The position numbers and the translations under genes were made by a program. DNA of 15,191 nt from the NCBI GenBank assembly GCA_003650975.1, contig QMSU01000006.1:1-15191 (forward strand). The letters are read 5' to 3'. The notes under the pieces are model-generated. The model saw nothing but the letters and a program-made list of their open reading frames with translations. It was not told the DNA's origin and did no database searches. Position 1 is the stretch's first letter. Every line of letters starts with the position of its first letter. Shown piece after piece: positions 1-15,191 of the stretch. Origin of the DNA: Thermoplasmata archaeon (GTDB taxonomy: Archaea > Thermoplasmatota > E2 > UBA202 > JdFR-43).

Positions 1-1467
1 CCCTTTGATTTCAGGGTGAGGAGGGAGGTTCTCGGATACGAGGTGATCAAGGCTCCCATCTTCCGCATGGCGCATCTCCTCTTAAATGCCACCGGCTACC
101 AGTACTACACACTCTTTTACACACCCTCCGAGCGCGACATAAAATTCGAGGAGCTCGGGAACGAATACTACGGGAGCATTGATGCCGACGCGGTGAAAAT
201 AATCATGCATACACCACCCATGACGGATTTTACCACGGATTGCAAAATCACCGATGGAAGCATGATATTCAACAACTCCCTGTGGGCATTCTGGGGAAAT
301 CCCACCCGGGTGTGGAACACATCGGGCCCGGAAACACTGAAGGGTGCACGGGATGTTCCTCCCGCAGGATGGGTTGAAATCCGCGGCGTTCCCTATGATT
401 TTACACCCAGATATGAAAAGGGAACTATGGGCAGAGGCGCGGAAGCGAAGGTTCTCTGGAGCTATCCGATAGGAGAACGAAACTGCGATTATGCCACACT
501 TGCAGCGGGCGACCGCATCGTCTATGCCTCCTTTGAAAGCACACTGTATGCTCTCACGGAAAACGGCTCTCTTCTCTGGCAGAAGGAGTTGGATGACGCC
601 ATACGTGACATTGCTGCGGATGAAAGCGGCGTGTATGTGGCAACCGACAGCGCATCCTATGCGTTCTCCCCCACAGGAACACAGATGTGGCGGAGGGCGG
701 GGGGAAAAGATATCGCAGTGGGAAAAGAGGTGTATGTCTCTGGCCCCGAAGGCGTCTACGGCGAGAACAAGGTGTCAGATACACCGGCAGATTTTGTTAC
801 CTATGACCGCACGCTCTACATCGCCAGCGGCTCCACGCTTCTCACCGACAGCTGGCAGTTCGAAGCAGAGGGGACACTGTTTGACGTGGTGGTGAAAAGA
901 AACGTGTATGCAGGAAGTGCCGACGGGAACCTCTACTGCCTGGGGAAGGACGGCACACTCAAATGGACGTATACCGCAGGATGGGGCATCGTGGACGTTG
1001 AGGTGGATGACGCCGTGTATGCAGGAAGTGCCGACGGGAACCTCTACTGCCTGGGGAAGGACGGCACACTCAAATGGACATTCAGCAGCAACGCCTCGAT
1101 TCACCACATCACAAAATACGGGGATTTTATCTTTTTCGGGTCCAGCGACGGAAGACTATATGCCATCAACCGTACCACCGGGAAAGCGGCCTTCAGTTTT
1201 GCTCCTGCCTATGAGATAGAGGGAACCTATAATTACATCACCACCCCTGTGGCATCACCGGTGGTTGCCACCAACGGAAAGGTCATGTTCTCGGCGGCGG
1301 GCACCATATACTGTCTGGATGCCAGAACCGTGGAGAAAGATACCGGAGCAGATGGCCATGGCATGGGCGGTACACCCCTCATCTGGGGCATTGCAGCGCT
1401 TGTCCTCATTGCAGCGGGTATTGCATTGTTCATGGCGAAGAGAAAGAAACGCATGGACAATGTTTAA
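1..1467 (+). CDS. Membrane-anchored extracellular PQQ-type beta-propeller protein (5' end outside window)
   Basis: The reading frame is open from base 1, so the gene is truncated by the window edge; a GTG at 16 is not needed as a start. Counting from that GTG, residues 1-130 form a domain with a D-C-K-I-T-D motif followed by LWAFWGNP. This vaguely resembles the C-terminal part of C45/phospholipase-B-like Ntn hydrolases, a weak assignment. Residues about 137-445 are propeller blades with the PQQ-type pattern (A-G-S-x-D-G-x-L-Y-C/A-L, then G-x-x-x-W). One transmembrane helix (about 455-474) and a short Lys/Arg-rich tail end the protein, so the propeller should face outwards, anchored by its C-terminus. 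Two blades share an exact 66-bp repeat. No enzymatic activity can be assigned from the propeller alone; PQQ-type repeats in archaea often act as binding scaffolds. The stop lies 24 bases before the tRNA, and the tRNA promoter overlaps the gene's end. Confidence 0.8.
   Translation, partial: PFDFRVRREVLGYEVIKAPIFRMAHLLLNATGYQYYTLFYTPSERDIKFEELGNEYYGSIDADAVKIIMHTPPMTDFTTDCKITDGSMIFNNSLWAFWGNPTRVWNTSGPETLKGARDVPPAGWVEIRGVPYDFTPRYEKGTMGRGAEAKVLWSYPIGERNCDYATLAAGDRIVYASFESTLYALTENGSLLWQKELDDAIRDIAADESGVYVATDSASYAFSPTGTQMWRRAGGKDIAVGKEVYVSGPEGVYGENKVSDTPADFVTYDRTLYIASGSTLLTDSWQFEAEGTLFDVVVKRNVYAGSADGNLYCLGKDGTLKWTYTAGWGIVDVEVDDAVYAGSADGNLYCLGKDGTLKWTFSSNASIHHITKYGDFIFFGSSDGRLYAINRTTGKAAFSFAPAYEIEGTYNYITTPVASPVVATNGKVMFSAAGTIYCLDARTVEKDTGADGHGMGGTPLIWGIAALVLIAAGIALFMAKRKKRMDNV
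903..1079 (+). repeat. Exact 66-bp direct repeat (903-968 and 1014-1079) in propeller gene
   Basis: Bases 903-968 and 1014-1079 are identical, offset by 111 bases (37 codons, one propeller blade). Each copy encodes a blade core starting VYAGSADG and ending TLKWT. The 45 bases between them differ, and identity stops abruptly at both ends. This suggests a recent blade duplication or gene conversion rather than protein-level constraint, because synonymous positions are identical as well. Confidence 0.93.
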
Positions 1468-1470
1468 ATT
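1463..1470 (+). promoter_or_regulatory. TATA box for tRNA-Leu
   Basis: TTTAAATT is centred about 26 bases before the first tRNA base (1492), the normal archaeal spacing. It overlaps the last codons of the upstream propeller gene. Confidence 0.6.
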
Positions 1471-1491: not shown

Positions 1492-1612
1492 GCAGGGGTA
1501 GCCAAGCGGCCAACGGCGCTAGGTTCAGGGCCTAGTGGTGTAGACCTCCGTGGGTTCGAAATCGCAATGTGCCTGCAAGCGGCAGATATGCTCGGAAATC
1601 CCACCCCCTGCA
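1492..1612 (+). tRNA. tRNA-Leu (anticodon CAG) with a 38-base T-loop intron
   Basis: The acceptor stem is a perfect 7-bp pairing of 1492-1498 (GCAGGGG) with 1605-1611 (CCCCTGC), with discriminator A1612. The D stem is 1501-1503/1515-1517. The anticodon stem 1519-1523/1531-1535 encloses loop TTCAGGG, giving anticodon CAG at 1526-1528. A long variable arm (1536-1549) marks it as a class II tRNA of the leucine type. The T stem is 1550-1554 (GTGGG) with 1600-1604 (CCCAC). Its T loop, TTCGAAT, is completed only if 1561-1598 are removed. Read without splicing, the 3' half after 1560 cannot form a T stem or acceptor stem. CCA is not encoded. A T-rich stretch follows (1617-1632). Confidence 0.9.
1561..1598 (+). 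other. Noncanonical tRNA intron at T-loop position 59/60
   Basis: The junction fits a bulge-helix-bulge substrate of the archaeal splicing endonuclease. T1555-G1558 pair with C1593-A1596 (4 bp, one G-U). The 5' bulge begins AAA (1559-1561) and the 3' bulge is AAT (1597-1599). Cleavage after the second bulge base on each side leaves exons joining as TTCGAA+T, the consensus T loop. The intron itself folds: 1564-1566 with 1589-1591, 1567-1568 with 1586-1587, and 1570-1573 with 1581-1584, closing a 7-base loop. The 5' bulge is slightly enlarged (1559-1563 opposite T1592), so the motif is relaxed rather than strict. The second exon is only 14 bases. Confidence 0.82.
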
Positions 1613-1616
1613 TAAT

Positions 1617-1632
1617 CTTTTTTAAGTTTTTT
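1617..1632 (+). promoter_or_regulatory. T-rich tRNA terminator overlapping TATA box of the next gene
   Basis: After the tRNA there is a run of seven T, then AAG, then six T. The T runs fit archaeal oligo-T termination of the tRNA. The TTTTTAAG within it (1619-1626) also sits about 24 bases before the ATG at 1646 and matches the promoter of the paralogous gene at 4896, so it probably doubles as a TATA box for a leaderless mRNA. Confidence 0.55.
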
Positions 1633-4895: not shown

Positions 4896-5303
4896 ATGAA
4901 GAGGAGATATGTTGCAGCGGCAATTCCCCCGCTTTTTATCATGTTATCTCTCTCAGGCATCGGTGGTACGATTCAGGAACCGGATGTGGCGGCTCATTTT
5001 TCATTTTTTGACTGGGGGATTGTGGTGGTGTTATGGAATGGTGAGGAGAAACCGCTGCATAACATTTCCATCGAACGTATTGAAATCGGAGGATATGTGT
5101 TTGCAGGGGCACCCACCGTGAGTTCCGTAAAAGAACTGGAGGCCCACCAGATGTGCTATCTTGCCACTCCGGTATTTGGTTTCGGCCAGTGTGTGGTGGC
5201 GCTCACCCTGTGCTATGAGTATGGTGGAGAAAGGTATACCACCGAAATGTATGGCTCTTTCATGGTATTTGGGGGTATCGTTCTCCTCCTGAATGAATGG
5301 TAG
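4896..5303 (+). CDS. Small secreted protein, second paralogue
   Basis: The 135-residue protein has MKRRY, a hydrophobic signal-like stretch to about residue 25, then TIQEPDV and a domain that matches the protein at 1646-2053. Shared motifs are GIVVV.WN.EEKP.H, an I.I.G..F.G region, YLATPVFG.G.C, YEY.G and the final EW. The C-terminal 20 residues are hydrophobic, which could be a membrane-associated hairpin or a buried beta strand. The two cysteines of the second half (CYLATPVFGFGQC) could form a disulfide, but the first of them is not conserved in the paralogue. Function is unknown. The paralogues flank the gdhA/MgtE pair in the same orientation, about 3.2 kb apart. Their divergence is substantial, so the duplication is not recent. 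Confidence 0.75.
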   Translation: MKRRYVAAAIPPLFIMLSLSGIGGTIQEPDVAAHFSFFDWGIVVVLWNGEEKPLHNISIERIEIGGYVFAGAPTVSSVKELEAHQMCYLATPVFGFGQCVVALTLCYEYGGERYTTEMYGSFMVFGGIVLLLNEW

Positions 5304-11723: not shown

Positions 11724-12015
11724 GTTCTGCCTCGCATATAATCGCGCGGCGCTTTAAAAATATAGTGTATTATTCTGATTGGTGCTGTCACGGTAAGAAA
11801 GCAAGAACGTAAAAATGAGGACGGGCCATGTCATCCTGCTCAGGGGGATGAAGATGCCCCACTAAACTTAAAAGACAAATTATTCTGGCTCTCTGGTATT
11901 ACCATACACAATTGTTGCAATACTAATTGAACCGGCACTGACAGATCTGGATGCACCTCTCCGTGGAATGGCAAATCTGCAACCGTCATTCCCCTTCATG
12001 TTCATCACCAAAAAC

Positions 12016-12023
12016 CTTAAATG
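12016..12023 (+). promoter_or_regulatory. TATA box of the giant surface gene
   Basis: CTTAAATG, preceded by AAAAAC, predicts transcription starting around 12043-12047. This leaves a leader of about 35-39 bases, long for this genome. Confidence 0.5.
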
Positions 12024-12042
12024 AGAAATTCACATTGTAAAT

Positions 12043-12061
12043 TGATAGACACTGTCTATCA
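12043..12061. promoter_or_regulatory. Perfect 19-bp palindrome, probable operator
   Basis: TGATAGACA and TGTCTATCA are exact reverse complements around a single C. The site overlaps the transcription start predicted from the TATA box at 12016-12023 and lies before the ribosome-binding site. A dimeric repressor bound here would block initiation. In RNA form it could only make a hairpin with an unusably small loop unless inner pairs open, so a DNA operator is the better reading. Confidence 0.7.
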
Positions 12062-12069
12062 CAGCTCAA

Positions 12070-12074
12070 GGAGG
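12070..12074 (+). promoter_or_regulatory. Ribosome-binding site of the giant surface gene
   Basis: GGAGG, seven bases before the ATG at 12082, is a strong Shine-Dalgarno sequence, in contrast to the leaderless neighbours. It fixes the start codon. Confidence 0.75.
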
Positions 12075-12081
12075 CGAGAAA

Positions 12082-15000
12082 ATGGATAAAAAAATAATGA
12101 TTGGTTTGGTGATAGGGAGCATAATGATTGTGAGTGGTATAACCCTTTCTGGATATCCGGCTCCGAGAGGAACAGACGTTTCAATTAAGTCTGCGGCACT
12201 GGTTCAAAACGAAATTTCTCTAACTCTTATTCCCGGAACCCAGCCCGGCAAGCCGCAGGTGTTGCTTGCGGCATATAATGACAATCCGTACTCCTTTGGA
12301 AGTGGTATTGGGTATGGCTACAGCACCGACGGTGGAGCAACATGGACCACCGGAAATTTACCGTTTCCTTTTAACCCTCTTACCGGCATGAATATGGACC
12401 AGGAGTTTGACCCGACGGCAACTTCAGACACGCTCGGCAACCTCTACATCGGTCACATTGCATCGGAAATAGGAGGCAGCAGCGGTCTCTATGTCCATAA
12501 ATCAACCAATGGCGGAGGTACATGGTTGTCGCCAGTTACGGTTGCTCTGGATGGGCCACCTTCGGGCGACCCTGATCCGCTCTACCGATTCAACGATAGA
12601 TGCCAGATGACTGCTGACACATTCTCCGGAAGTCCGTATACGAATAATATCTATATTACTTGGATAAAGGACAGGGGATTTCATATGCCCCAACCATGGA
12701 GTGATGTGTACTTTTCATATTCGACAAATCAGGGCGTGAGTTTCAGTTCAGCGGTAAGAATAAATGACATTGGCCATGACATGGGCAATATGCCCATCCC
12801 CGCTGTGGCACCAAACGGAACCGTATATGTGGTGTGGATGGATTATAATGTGACATCCGGCGGAAATGGAACCATCTATCTCGATAAATCATTTGATGGG
12901 GGTGTTACCTGGGGGACAGACCAGTTTGTTGCACAGATTAACCTCCCACCGCTCCGTCTGAATACTGCCGCGGGATTCACAGACGTTTTAGCCAAGGGTG
13001 GCACTCCGATTGCAGTCTCGCCCACCAATTCAAGTGAACTGTACATCGTATATGCCGCTGACCCTGATGGGAACGGTACTGATGAGGCTGACATATTTTT
13101 CATCAAATCAACTGATGGTGGAAGCTCGTGGAGTTCACCGCTGAGGGTGAACGACGATTCGACCAAAAATGACCAGTTTTTACCGTGGATGGATGTGAAA
13201 TCTGATGGGACAATCGATATTGCATGGTACGACCGCCGCAACGATGTGAACGATTCCCTGTGGGATGTATATTTTGCAAAGAGTACCGATGGCGGCAGCA
13301 GTTTCTCGCAAAATATTCAGCTGAATGACATCAGTTTTCCCACGCCAACAAATCTCTGGATGGGCGAGTACCTCGGGCTGGCAGTCGACAGCAACTACGC
13401 CTTTGTTGCCTTTACTTCTTCATTGACTGATGTAGTAACCGGCGACGTTTATTTTGATAAAGTTCCCAACAGCCTCAGCACGGTGTATGTTGATGATGAC
13501 TACAATGCCTCCACACCCGGATGGCAGATTGACCATTTTGACACCATACAGGGGGCAATAGATGCAGTGGATGTCAACGGCACGGTGATTGTGTACAATG
13601 GAACATATACAGAGAACATTGTGGTGAATAAGAGTATCACGCTCCAGGCAGGAAGCAACCCTGTGATTGACGGGAATGGAACAGGAGATGTTATATACAT
13701 TTCTGCTGATTGGGTGACCATCAATGGATTCACCATACAAAATAGTGGAACCAACTGGGGCGATGCGGGAATCGAAATAGCCACATCAAACCAGTGCAAC
13801 GTCTCTCGCAATAACATTTCAACCAGCAATGCTGGTATCGTGCTTTCTTCTTCCAACAACAATGTTGTATTAAATAATTCTATTATAAATAACCAATATG
13901 GCATAGTGGGTTCTTCTTCATCCAACAACACCATATCAGGCAACACTATCAACTCGAATAATTACGGAGATGGGATATATCTCTCATCTTCTTCCAACAA
14001 CACCATATCACACAACACTATCACATCAAATAATGCTGCGGGAATATATTTTGACCCATCCTGCAACTACAATACCATCTCAGGCAACAATATCTCCTCG
14101 AATGATGACGGCATAGATATATACGGCTCTGTTTCCAACAATTACAATACCCTCTCTGGCAACACCATATGGAATAACAGCGGCTATGGGATATATTTTG
14201 ACTGGTCGAGGAGTAATACCATCTCGAATAACACCATTAGCTCAAATAATTATGATGGTATATGGCTTTTTGGATCAGACAATACAACTGTTTTCGGAAA
14301 TAATATCTTAAGTAATAATGAAGATGGCATTTATATCGAGGAGTCTGATAATAATAACGTCTCAGATAATATCATTAGTAACAATGGCTGGAGGGGAATT
14401 TATATCGAGGAGTCTGATAATAACACTGTATCAGATAACACTATCGGCAACAACAGTGTTTATGGCGTATACATCTACTCTTCCATTTACAACACTCTCA
14501 CCGGCAACACTCTCACTTACAATTTTGATGGCATACGACTCGGTTTATCTAACCACATCACCATCACAAACAACACCATCGCTAACAGCAATTATAGTGG
14601 CATATGGGTTTCATCTTCTTCTACCAATAACACTATTACGAACAATACCATCAGCCATAATCGTTACGGAGTGCAGTTCAGCGATTCTAATCACAGTACC
14701 ATCGCAAACAACAGTATCAGTAACAGCAGTTGGTATGGTATGATTTTTGATAATTCCAATAACAATACCGTCTCCGGCAACACTATCAGCAACAACGGCT
14801 GGCGCGGTCTTCATCTCTATTCTTCCAGCGACGGTAACCTGATTTACAACAATTATTTCAACAACACCAACAACGCCTATGATGACGGAAACAATACGTG
14901 GAATATAACCAAAACATCCGGTACCAACATCATCAACGGTTCGTACCTCGGGGGAAATTTCTGGAGCGATTATGCCGGGAGTGATACCAATGGCGATGGA

Positions 15001-15191
15001 CTCGGAGACACAGACTTACCATATAACTGTTCAGGAAACATTGCCAATGGCGGAGACTGGCATCCACTGGTTACTCCCTCTACACCCTCCATTGATTATA
15101 TCACCATCACCTTCGGCACAGAAAACGAAATCCCGCCGGGAAACATGTCCACGGGTTTCACCTTCACCATGTATGCCACCGCATTCAACAC
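12082..15191 (+). CDS. Giant surface protein: Asp-box beta-propeller, NosD-type beta-helix, further domain (3' end outside window)
   Basis: The frame is open from the ATG to the window edge (over 1,030 codons) with no stop. Residues 1-28 are a signal or N-terminal membrane segment. Residues about 40-460 contain six BNR/Asp-box motifs (S-T-D/N-G-G-x-x-W/F) near 81-88, 141-148, 214-221, 270-277, 343-350 and 401-408. This indicates a six-bladed sialidase-type propeller, although no sialidase catalytic set was identified. From about 468 (VYVDDDYN, then a TIQGAIDAV segment) a right-handed parallel beta-helix of NosD/PbH1 type runs to about 970, with repeats of the form N-T-I-x-x-N-x-I-x-x-N-x-x-G-I. 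GGNFWSDYAG and DTNGDGLGDTDLPY close the helix as in NosD-like archaeal surface proteins. A further beta-rich domain begins near 1003. N-x-S/T sequons are extremely dense in the helix. It probably acts outside the cell in glycan binding, adhesion or polysaccharide processing. Confidence 0.9.
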   Translation, partial: MDKKIMIGLVIGSIMIVSGITLSGYPAPRGTDVSIKSAALVQNEISLTLIPGTQPGKPQVLLAAYNDNPYSFGSGIGYGYSTDGGATWTTGNLPFPFNPLTGMNMDQEFDPTATSDTLGNLYIGHIASEIGGSSGLYVHKSTNGGGTWLSPVTVALDGPPSGDPDPLYRFNDRCQMTADTFSGSPYTNNIYITWIKDRGFHMPQPWSDVYFSYSTNQGVSFSSAVRINDIGHDMGNMPIPAVAPNGTVYVVWMDYNVTSGGNGTIYLDKSFDGGVTWGTDQFVAQINLPPLRLNTAAGFTDVLAKGGTPIAVSPTNSSELYIVYAADPDGNGTDEADIFFIKSTDGGSSWSSPLRVNDDSTKNDQFLPWMDVKSDGTIDIAWYDRRNDVNDSLWDVYFAKSTDGGSSFSQNIQLNDISFPTPTNLWMGEYLGLAVDSNYAFVAFTSSLTDVVTGDVYFDKVPNSLSTVYVDDDYNASTPGWQIDHFDTIQGAIDAVDVNGTVIVYNGTYTENIVVNKSITLQAGSNPVIDGNGTGDVIYISADWVTINGFTIQNSGTNWGDAGIEIATSNQCNVSRNNISTSNAGIVLSSSNNNVVLNNSIINNQYGIVGSSSSNNTISGNTINSNNYGDGIYLSSSSNNTISHNTITSNNAAGIYFDPSCNYNTISGNNISSNDDGIDIYGSVSNNYNTLSGNTIWNNSGYGIYFDWSRSNTISNNTISSNNYDGIWLFGSDNTTVFGNNILSNNEDGIYIEESDNNNVSDNIISNNGWRGIYIEESDNNTVSDNTIGNNSVYGVYIYSSIYNTLTGNTLTYNFDGIRLGLSNHITITNNTIANSNYSGIWVSSSSTNNTITNNTISHNRYGVQFSDSNHSTIANNSISNSSWYGMIFDNSNNNTVSGNTISNNGWRGLHLYSSSDGNLIYNNYFNNTNNAYDDGNNTWNITKTSGTNIINGSYLGGNFWSDYAGSDTNGDGLGDTDLPYNCSGNIANGGDWHPLVTPSTPSIDYITITFGTENEIPPGNMSTGFTFTMYATAFN
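13801..14850 (+). repeat. Degenerate tandem repeats encoding beta-helix coils
   Basis: About fourteen to sixteen units of roughly 60-75 bases encode coils rich in NNT, NIS/TIS and GIY/GIW. They are degenerate at DNA level, with AAT/AAC-rich codons and a lower GC content than the rest of the window. Some neighbours are near-copies, for example the two units containing IEESDN (14336-14360 and 14405-14425). The repeats open long false frames in other registers. Confidence 0.8.

Follow-up and report, generated by a model that had tools for sequence, protein, structure and literature searches.

A T-loop intron in an archaeal tRNA-Leu(CAG) gene and its relatives at the same site across the order

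The gene at positions 1492..1612 (forward strand) of the DNA analysed here is very probably a working tRNA-Leu(CAG) with a bulge-helix-bulge (BHB) intron at its T loop, spliced by the tRNA splicing endonuclease together with the RtcB ligase and belonging to an order-wide family of introns that occupy one and the same site. This reading draws on the sequence, predicted folds, covariation, the distribution of the introns among genomes and intronless orthologues. A 59/60 intron of the BHB type in tRNA-Leu(CAG), as suggested in an earlier sequence-only reading, is still the best account of the locus. About 120 T-loop introns, many of them alike, occupy this single site across an order in which they were not expected. 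The DNA, here called the window, is the whole stretch of 15,191 nt from contig QMSU01000006.1 (GCA_003650975.1) of a Thermoplasmata archaeon (lineage E2; UBA202; JdFR-43). To our knowledge, 59/60 introns have been known mainly from Thermoproteales-type Crenarchaeota, and we recognised no report of T-loop introns in Thermoplasmatota among the best-ranked matches in the open-licence literature.

The gene, its intron and its short second exon lie where the sequence-only reading had placed them. On the forward strand, exon 1 (tRNA positions 1-59, 69 nt) spans 1492..1560, as judged from the sequence and from intronless orthologues, and is followed by the 38-nt T-loop intron at 1561..1598, delimited by the fold and by intronless relatives. 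Exon 2 (1599..1612, 14 nt) supplies T60, the 3' strands of the T stem and the acceptor and, as its last base, the discriminator A73. The acceptor (GCAGGGG/CCCCTGC), the T stem (GTGGG/CCCAC; 1550..1554 paired with 1600..1604 in the fold), the D arm, the anticodon arm with CAG, a long variable arm and the discriminator A are all present, and excision of the intron gives a normal 83-nt tRNA with a 7-bp acceptor, a 5-bp T stem and the loop TTCGAAT. The cut could fall at 57/58, 58/59 or 59/60, a shift of one or two bases that leaves the spliced product unchanged; among these equivalents 59/60 is presumably preferred by the BHB cutting rule. A TATA-like TTTAAAT can be read 29 to 23 bases upstream (1463..1469), and a T-rich, terminator-like stretch 3' of the gene (1618..1632), both on the forward strand. 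Elsewhere in the window, two small proteins encoded at 1640-2053 and 4896-5303 look paralogous by eye, with a signal-like start and the shared motif ...QEPDV...GIVVV.WN.EEKP. Few long closed reading frames are listed for ~11760-15191, and our guess is that the fragments there are shadow frames of a long repetitive protein that runs off the contig end.

The locus is the top match in the window by our full-tRNA script (score 47, central helix 4/4). None of 60 random windows from a first-order Markov model combined a score of at least 47 with a 4-bp central helix (best random score 45.8), this threshold being chosen only once the gene had been seen. The concern that standard tools may miss such a gene proved justified for two of them: ARAGORN reported no tRNA at the locus, and the Rfam tRNA model gave 18.3 bits for 1492-1552, under its 29-bit cut-off. 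The tRNA sets of these genomes are therefore easily under-annotated, given that ARAGORN overlooks tRNA-Leu(CAG) and others. No Rfam intron family was found in the window, where the sole match at E up to 1 was a weak tmRNA elsewhere. Self-splicing group I and II introns have a catalytic core of about 200 nt or more, and we rejected such an intron on the grounds that the introns of this family (13-50 nt) are too short and match nothing in Rfam.

In the unconstrained fold of the precursor, both the 7-bp acceptor and the 5-bp T stem are kept and only the T loop is lost. The earlier view that the intron, if left in place, destroys T stem, loop and acceptor alike therefore holds for the loop and fails for the two stems. 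The T stem is predicted to be extended by a helix between exon TTCG(A) and intron (U)CGGA, and then by an intron hairpin (H', 1564..1591). The predicted junction is a bulge-helix-bulge with a central helix of 4-5 bp, in which the exon strand TTCG (tRNA positions 54-57; 1555..1558) pairs with the intron strand CGGA (1593..1596), as indicated by the fold and by covariation at position 57. On the 3' side, a canonical 3-nt bulge (AA/T, 1597..1599, the slash marking the splice site) follows from the fold and the general bulge rule, and on the 5' side the fold gives an enlarged, irregular bulge (AA/ATC, 1559..1563) with a predicted A1559-U1592 pair. The motif had been described as a relaxed bulge-helix-bulge, which suits its 5' side but not its 3' side. 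None of 200 shuffles of the whole precursor folded as well (z -2.87), and three of 200 did so for the T arm alone. When six T arms of the window's genome were folded singly, the central helix appeared in five of the six minimum-energy folds, the exception being Ala(CGC); it is also missing from the centroid of the Leu(TAG) arm, and the Lys(TTT) arm is no better folded than many of its shuffles (37/200).

Based on prediction and covariation, the transcript would fold with its T stem intact, and exon TTCG would pair with intron CGGA to set the BHB atop that stem. The endonuclease would then cut in both bulges and RtcB would join the 69-nt and 14-nt exons, and only the spliced product would be able to form the T loop, receive its modifications there and dock with the D loop. 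TTCR is among the most uniform stretches of tRNAs, and an intron of this kind could rebuild the splice motif in almost any tRNA because it carries the complement of TTCR. Such rebuilding would explain both the many isoacceptors and the single position.

Comparison with related genomes, which the sequence-only reading had also suggested, supports the proposed splice product. Leu(CAG) was seen in 15 same-family genomes (the window's own included); 12 of these genes are intronless by eye, and two others carry a 13-nt intron in the same place. The predicted 25-nt spliced junction is exactly encoded in four of the six intronless sister-species genes tested. Aligned with the best intronless orthologues, the spliced tRNA agrees in 76 of 84 columns; of the other eight, one holds a base beyond the tRNA. 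By glutamate dehydrogenase, the nearest named record is Thermoplasmata archaeon M10_bin2222 (83% identical), whose genome has exactly the same four matches to our DNA pattern as the same-family genome G004.

The window's genome (1.56 Mb, 313 contigs, 85% complete) contains 32 tRNA genes as seen by us: 30 Rfam matches, including an Arg(TCT) that occurs identically at two contig ends, to which BLAST and inspection by eye added Leu(TAA) and Glu(TTC). A complete T-loop intron is present in 11 of the 32, namely Leu(CAG), Leu(TAG), Leu(TAA), Arg(CCG), Arg(TCG), Ala(CGC), Glu(TTC), Met(CAT), Lys(TTT), Cys(GCA) and Ser(TGA), and both Leu(TAA) and Glu(TTC) have an additional anticodon-loop intron. In tRNA-His(GTG) (L358; G000:C154:1-300) the contig ends soon after the T loop; this gene may carry a T-loop intron as well, as the bases after the T loop do not give a T stem.

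We consider it highly improbable that the insertion killed the gene and left CUG to be read by tRNA-Leu(UAG) through wobble. Leu(UAG) could in principle read this codon. However, T-loop introns also interrupt Leu(TAG) and Leu(TAA) in this genome, so that only two of the five leucine tRNAs seen, GAG and CAA, would still work. Moreover, no helix of the gene is broken, the predicted fold pairs the insert with the exon, CTG is used 50 times across six presumed genes of the window, and the TATA-like and T-rich flanks are in place. A second, intact Leu(CAG), which the sequence-only reading had named, together with the lack of a spliced transcript, as the sign of a pseudogene, was not found by BLAST in the 85%-complete assembly, where the matches were Leu TAG, GAG and TAA. 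Both a pseudogene and an assembly artefact were rejected on the evidence that the same insertion site, with covarying sequence, recurs in 21 of 22 genomes.

T-loop introns are indeed the rule in the window's order. In a set of 80 genomes of the class, a first DNA pattern matched 12, all of them in the order (12/22 against 0/58 in the others), and the reversed pattern gave no match in the same set. A covariance model built from 31 introns gave 119 matches in 21 of the 22 order genomes. The 109 matches outside the window's genome were fetched; 106 passed a scripted tRNA test, two of the remaining three are tRNAs by eye and one is a truncated repeat copy. Together with the 11 of the window's own genome, this amounts to 117 verified T-loop introns in tRNAs with 28 anticodons (assigned by script) and 15 amino acids. 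They are 13-50 nt long (median 32), and 18 of the genes have a second intron in the anticodon loop. The 117 were obtained from 119 script rows by dropping L254 (a 5'-truncated repeat copy) and the second pick in L284; Gly(TCC) of G011 (L278) and Lys(TTT) of G008 (L349), with T-loop introns recognised by eye, stand outside this number. All intron counts are lower bounds, because the first pattern is blind to introns without GCA near their start or longer than ~45 nt and the covariance model overlooks some of the shortest (Lys(TTT) of the window's genome and the 13-nt intron in Leu(CAG) of G001). The counts also lean toward the central helix, since the scan required at least three of four central pairs and the model contains the helix.

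Under stricter filters, the model rang in 22 genomes of a phylum sample of 214, 17 in the order and five beyond it; some order genomes that are strong in the order search, such as G014 and G016, seem absent from this sample, and the outside share is five of 192-197 genomes. One of the five, G118, belongs to a distant family of the same phylum and has five T-loop introns (L366-L370; four confirmed by script, one by eye) of a different sequence family, which suggests a second, seemingly independent expansion at 59/60. G242 (L371), G171 (L372) and G256 (L373) each have one Lys(TTT) with a T-loop intron, and by eye these three genes seem to contain a D-arm intron too. In G113, tRNA-Trp(CCA) (L374) combines a 98-nt anticodon-loop intron with a 33-nt T-loop intron. 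Outside the class, the pattern matched 11 times in 10 of 309 genomes; the eight loci fetched failed the tRNA test, which did not cover those in G271 and G334 and the second in G366.

The central helix is supported by covariation. In the 31 introns of the model set, tRNA position 57 and intron base -6 form A-U in 16 cases, G-C in 13 and G-U in one, with one unpaired. For the 117 introns the figures are A-T 51, G-C 42, G-T 6 and unpaired 18 (Fisher's test on the A/G by T/C table, 2.4e-19, uncorrected for relatedness). Shifting the partners of the four-pair helix in the model alignment reduced the paired cells from 99% to 67% or less, and the three other central pairs, partly imposed by the search pattern, are weaker proof than position 57. 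The H' helix as aligned is paired in just 76% of cells, because two intron subtypes are out of register. By eye, many introns of 45-50 nt (L256, L259, L275, L282 and others) share an inner stretch near GTTGCGTTTCC / ATTTCC, and have two alternative partners for the 5' GCAACTTG; the 30-nt introns are without the inner GTTGCGTTTCC stretch.

The introns of different tRNAs resemble each other, and for this reason the family has probably spread, always to one site. Among the 88 introns of at least 28 nt, compared without their last six bases, identity reaches 75% or more in 199 of the 3497 pairs that join different amino-acid families, where three base shuffles gave 0.33 such pairs on average; part of this similarity is structural, since the shuffles do not keep hairpins. 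How the introns moved can be approached from their nearest relatives, which for 63 of the 88 lie in another anticodon (18 in the same genome, 9 in the same genus and 36 in another genus). Transposition within a genome by reverse splicing, reverse transcription and recombination, as suggested for Thermoproteales, is a serious candidate that we rate somewhat short of an even chance. It is consistent with the 18 introns whose closest kin sits in a different anticodon of the same genome and with the case of G008, where Leu(CAG) and Ala(CGC) share one and the same 13-nt intron sequence. However, the 36 with their nearest relative in another anticodon of another genus fit it less well, and imply that many events are old or that the sequences are constrained by their hairpins. 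Moreover, 25 of the 88 have their closest kin in a gene with the same anticodon (for 19, within one genus), which is the pattern expected from plain inheritance. We know of no enzyme for the transposition step.

A possible vehicle is seen in the same-family genome G001 (L375/L376, G001:C4:16300-39400). Here the T loop of a complete tRNA-Arg(CCT) contains a 30-nt intron, and 22 kb away the segment between the anticodon loop and the 3' end of this tRNA recurs, together with the intron, as a 75-bp exact direct repeat. The 22 kb between the repeats encode a tyrosine integrase, small and large terminase, portal, a Mu-F-like head protein, major capsid and tape measure, and by its coordinates the integrase reading frame overlaps the far repeat. 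Judged by its gene content, the element is a tailed-virus-like provirus with an att-like repeat. Because integration swaps in the element's own copy of the tRNA 3' part, a single event of this kind could introduce a 59/60 intron or delete one. That the introns arrived within viral or plasmid attachment sites, and are lost by excision or by intron-free re-integration, is thus a possibility, and to our minds a rather doubtful one. Gain at an attachment site has been proposed before for another archaeon, Caldiarchaeum, at another tRNA position (PMC3293823; restated in PMC8371274, in the passages cited). The model would fit the preference for one site. However, it has a single provirus behind it, the intron of which may have been picked up from the host, and none of 16 pattern matches in the viral contigs scanned for intron-bearing att sites is a tRNA (T-stem pairing 3-5 of 5). 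Att sites are tRNA-specific, and spread between isoacceptors within one genome, such as that of the near-identical 34-nt introns in Ala(CGC) and Thr(CGT) of G012 and G003, would consequently need another step, which the model leaves unexplained.

The same provirus bears on the idea of Randau and Soell that introns are kept as a shield, breaking the attachment site against integration. This idea is already in print (PMC3293823 and PMC4390854, in part), and the introns do lie in the 3' part of the tRNA preferred by archaeal integrases according to passages of PMC8371274. We regard it as unlikely here: the tRNA gene occupied by the G001 provirus has an intron, which lies within the repeat, so the intron was no bar to integration in that case. 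Returning to the order-wide family, we tentatively suggest, as a combined picture that is possible but not probable, a mobile intron family with one target (the TTCRA T loop). Such introns would re-create their splice motif in nearly any tRNA, be removed by an ordinary alpha'2 endonuclease, of a class regarded as narrow in specificity, and travel between cells in the att sites of tailed proviruses.

We infer from gene content which enzymes would splice these introns. RtcB is encoded in the window's genome; a search of this 85%-complete assembly for the splicing endonuclease (PF01974) found none, and the question of the endonuclease class, raised in the sequence-only reading, was addressed through relatives. 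PF01974 was above cut-off in 16 of the 22 order genomes; of the 37 other genomes sampled from the class, 36 had it. It was not over cut-off in six of the 22, including the 99%-complete G019, which has eight T-loop introns. In the order, purQ adjoins the endonuclease gene in all 13 loci examined (16 genomes have the gene), and purQ was likewise not found in the window's genome. With the neighbour absent too, a missing stretch of assembly is likelier than loss of the endonuclease, and an empty search proves little. In the two chains of the order that were tested, about 340 residues comprise two N-terminal-type and two catalytic-type domains; the comparison made with one of these chains showed a match to the alpha'2 enzyme of A. 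fulgidus and the EndA chain of M. kandleri. The relatives of the window's genome thus encode a plain alpha'2-like endonuclease, as read from sequence, with two repeats in one chain rather than separate subunits. Alignment of the catalytic repeat with five relatives outside the order showed no large insertion, and alignment with the A. fulgidus, A. pernix and M. kandleri chains no obvious special loop (places of CSL and ASL not mapped).

Passages of PMC6379350 list the alpha'2 class as narrow in specificity, note that T-loop introns exist in archaea and describe the A. fulgidus enzyme as removing bulge-helix-loop introns at 37/38 from full-length precursors. For Euryarchaeota with alpha4 or alpha2 enzymes, single introns at the canonical position are reported in the cited parts of PMC4090602, and both this source and PMC4033280 hold, in part, that these organisms have, or their enzymes cut, canonical introns only. 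A 59/60 intron had been called unusual for a euryarchaeon; this agrees with the cited part of PMC4090602, though passages of PMC4033280 name two Euryarchaeota with multiple-intron tRNAs, and within the window's own order it is the rule (21 of 22 genomes). A narrow alpha'2 class and the lack of an extra loop sit against cutting of the irregular 5' bulge and of 13-nt introns. However, homodimers able to cut bulge-helix-loop motifs are described in a study of the Ferroplasma enzyme (PMC8707768, in the passages cited), and this ability might suffice for the T-loop introns of the order. The presence of about 120 T-loop introns in an order with alpha'2 enzymes is at odds with the rule given in those parts of the reviews and offers a natural test of what such enzymes can cut. 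The one-site habit, the covarying helix, the intron-free orthologues that differ by a few substitutions and the provirus with the intron in its att-like repeat make intron gain itself directly testable.

Several known systems resemble this family in part. The archaeal non-canonical BHB introns of Thermoproteales, Thaumarchaeota, Caldiarchaeum and Asgard (PMC8450103, PMC3293823 and PMC11291895, as far as the cited passages go) are likewise short and outside 37/38, with several introns per genome and some two-intron genes, and T-loop or T-arm sites are in print for such introns in parts of PMC6379350 and PMC3293823. According to passages of PMC8450103, the intron model of tRNAscan-SE was trained partly on euryarchaeal non-canonical introns. 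In the published cases, as cited, the sites are various, whereas in the window's order 59/60 is recurrent, the order survey being limited to 59/60 and 37/38. Moreover, relaxed motifs are tied to (alpha-beta)2 and epsilon2 enzymes in the cited parts of PMC6379350, PMC4090602 and PMC4033280, and the order has an alpha'2-like one. An earlier intron system of another phylum is similar in having very similar introns across isoacceptors; the order differs in its single target site, where the conserved TTCR serves as the exon strand. The attP-borne model for tRNA-Thr of Caldiarchaeum, as outlined in passages of PMC3293823, shares with our case a mobile element at a tRNA gene and the gain of an intron. 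There, however, the position is 24/25 and the sequence a 1.8-kb recombinase-bearing one; in G001 the provirus is tailed-virus-like and occupies the 3' part of tRNA-Arg(CCT), with a T-loop intron within its repeat. As for Micrarchaeota (ARMAN), the one match in five MAGs titled Micrarchaeota, Marsarchaeota or Nanoarchaeota (L206, in a MAG named Micrarchaeota) fits a tRNA of unsettled isotype with a 15-nt T-loop intron; that group has an epsilon2 endonuclease, in contrast to the alpha'2-like enzyme of the window's order.
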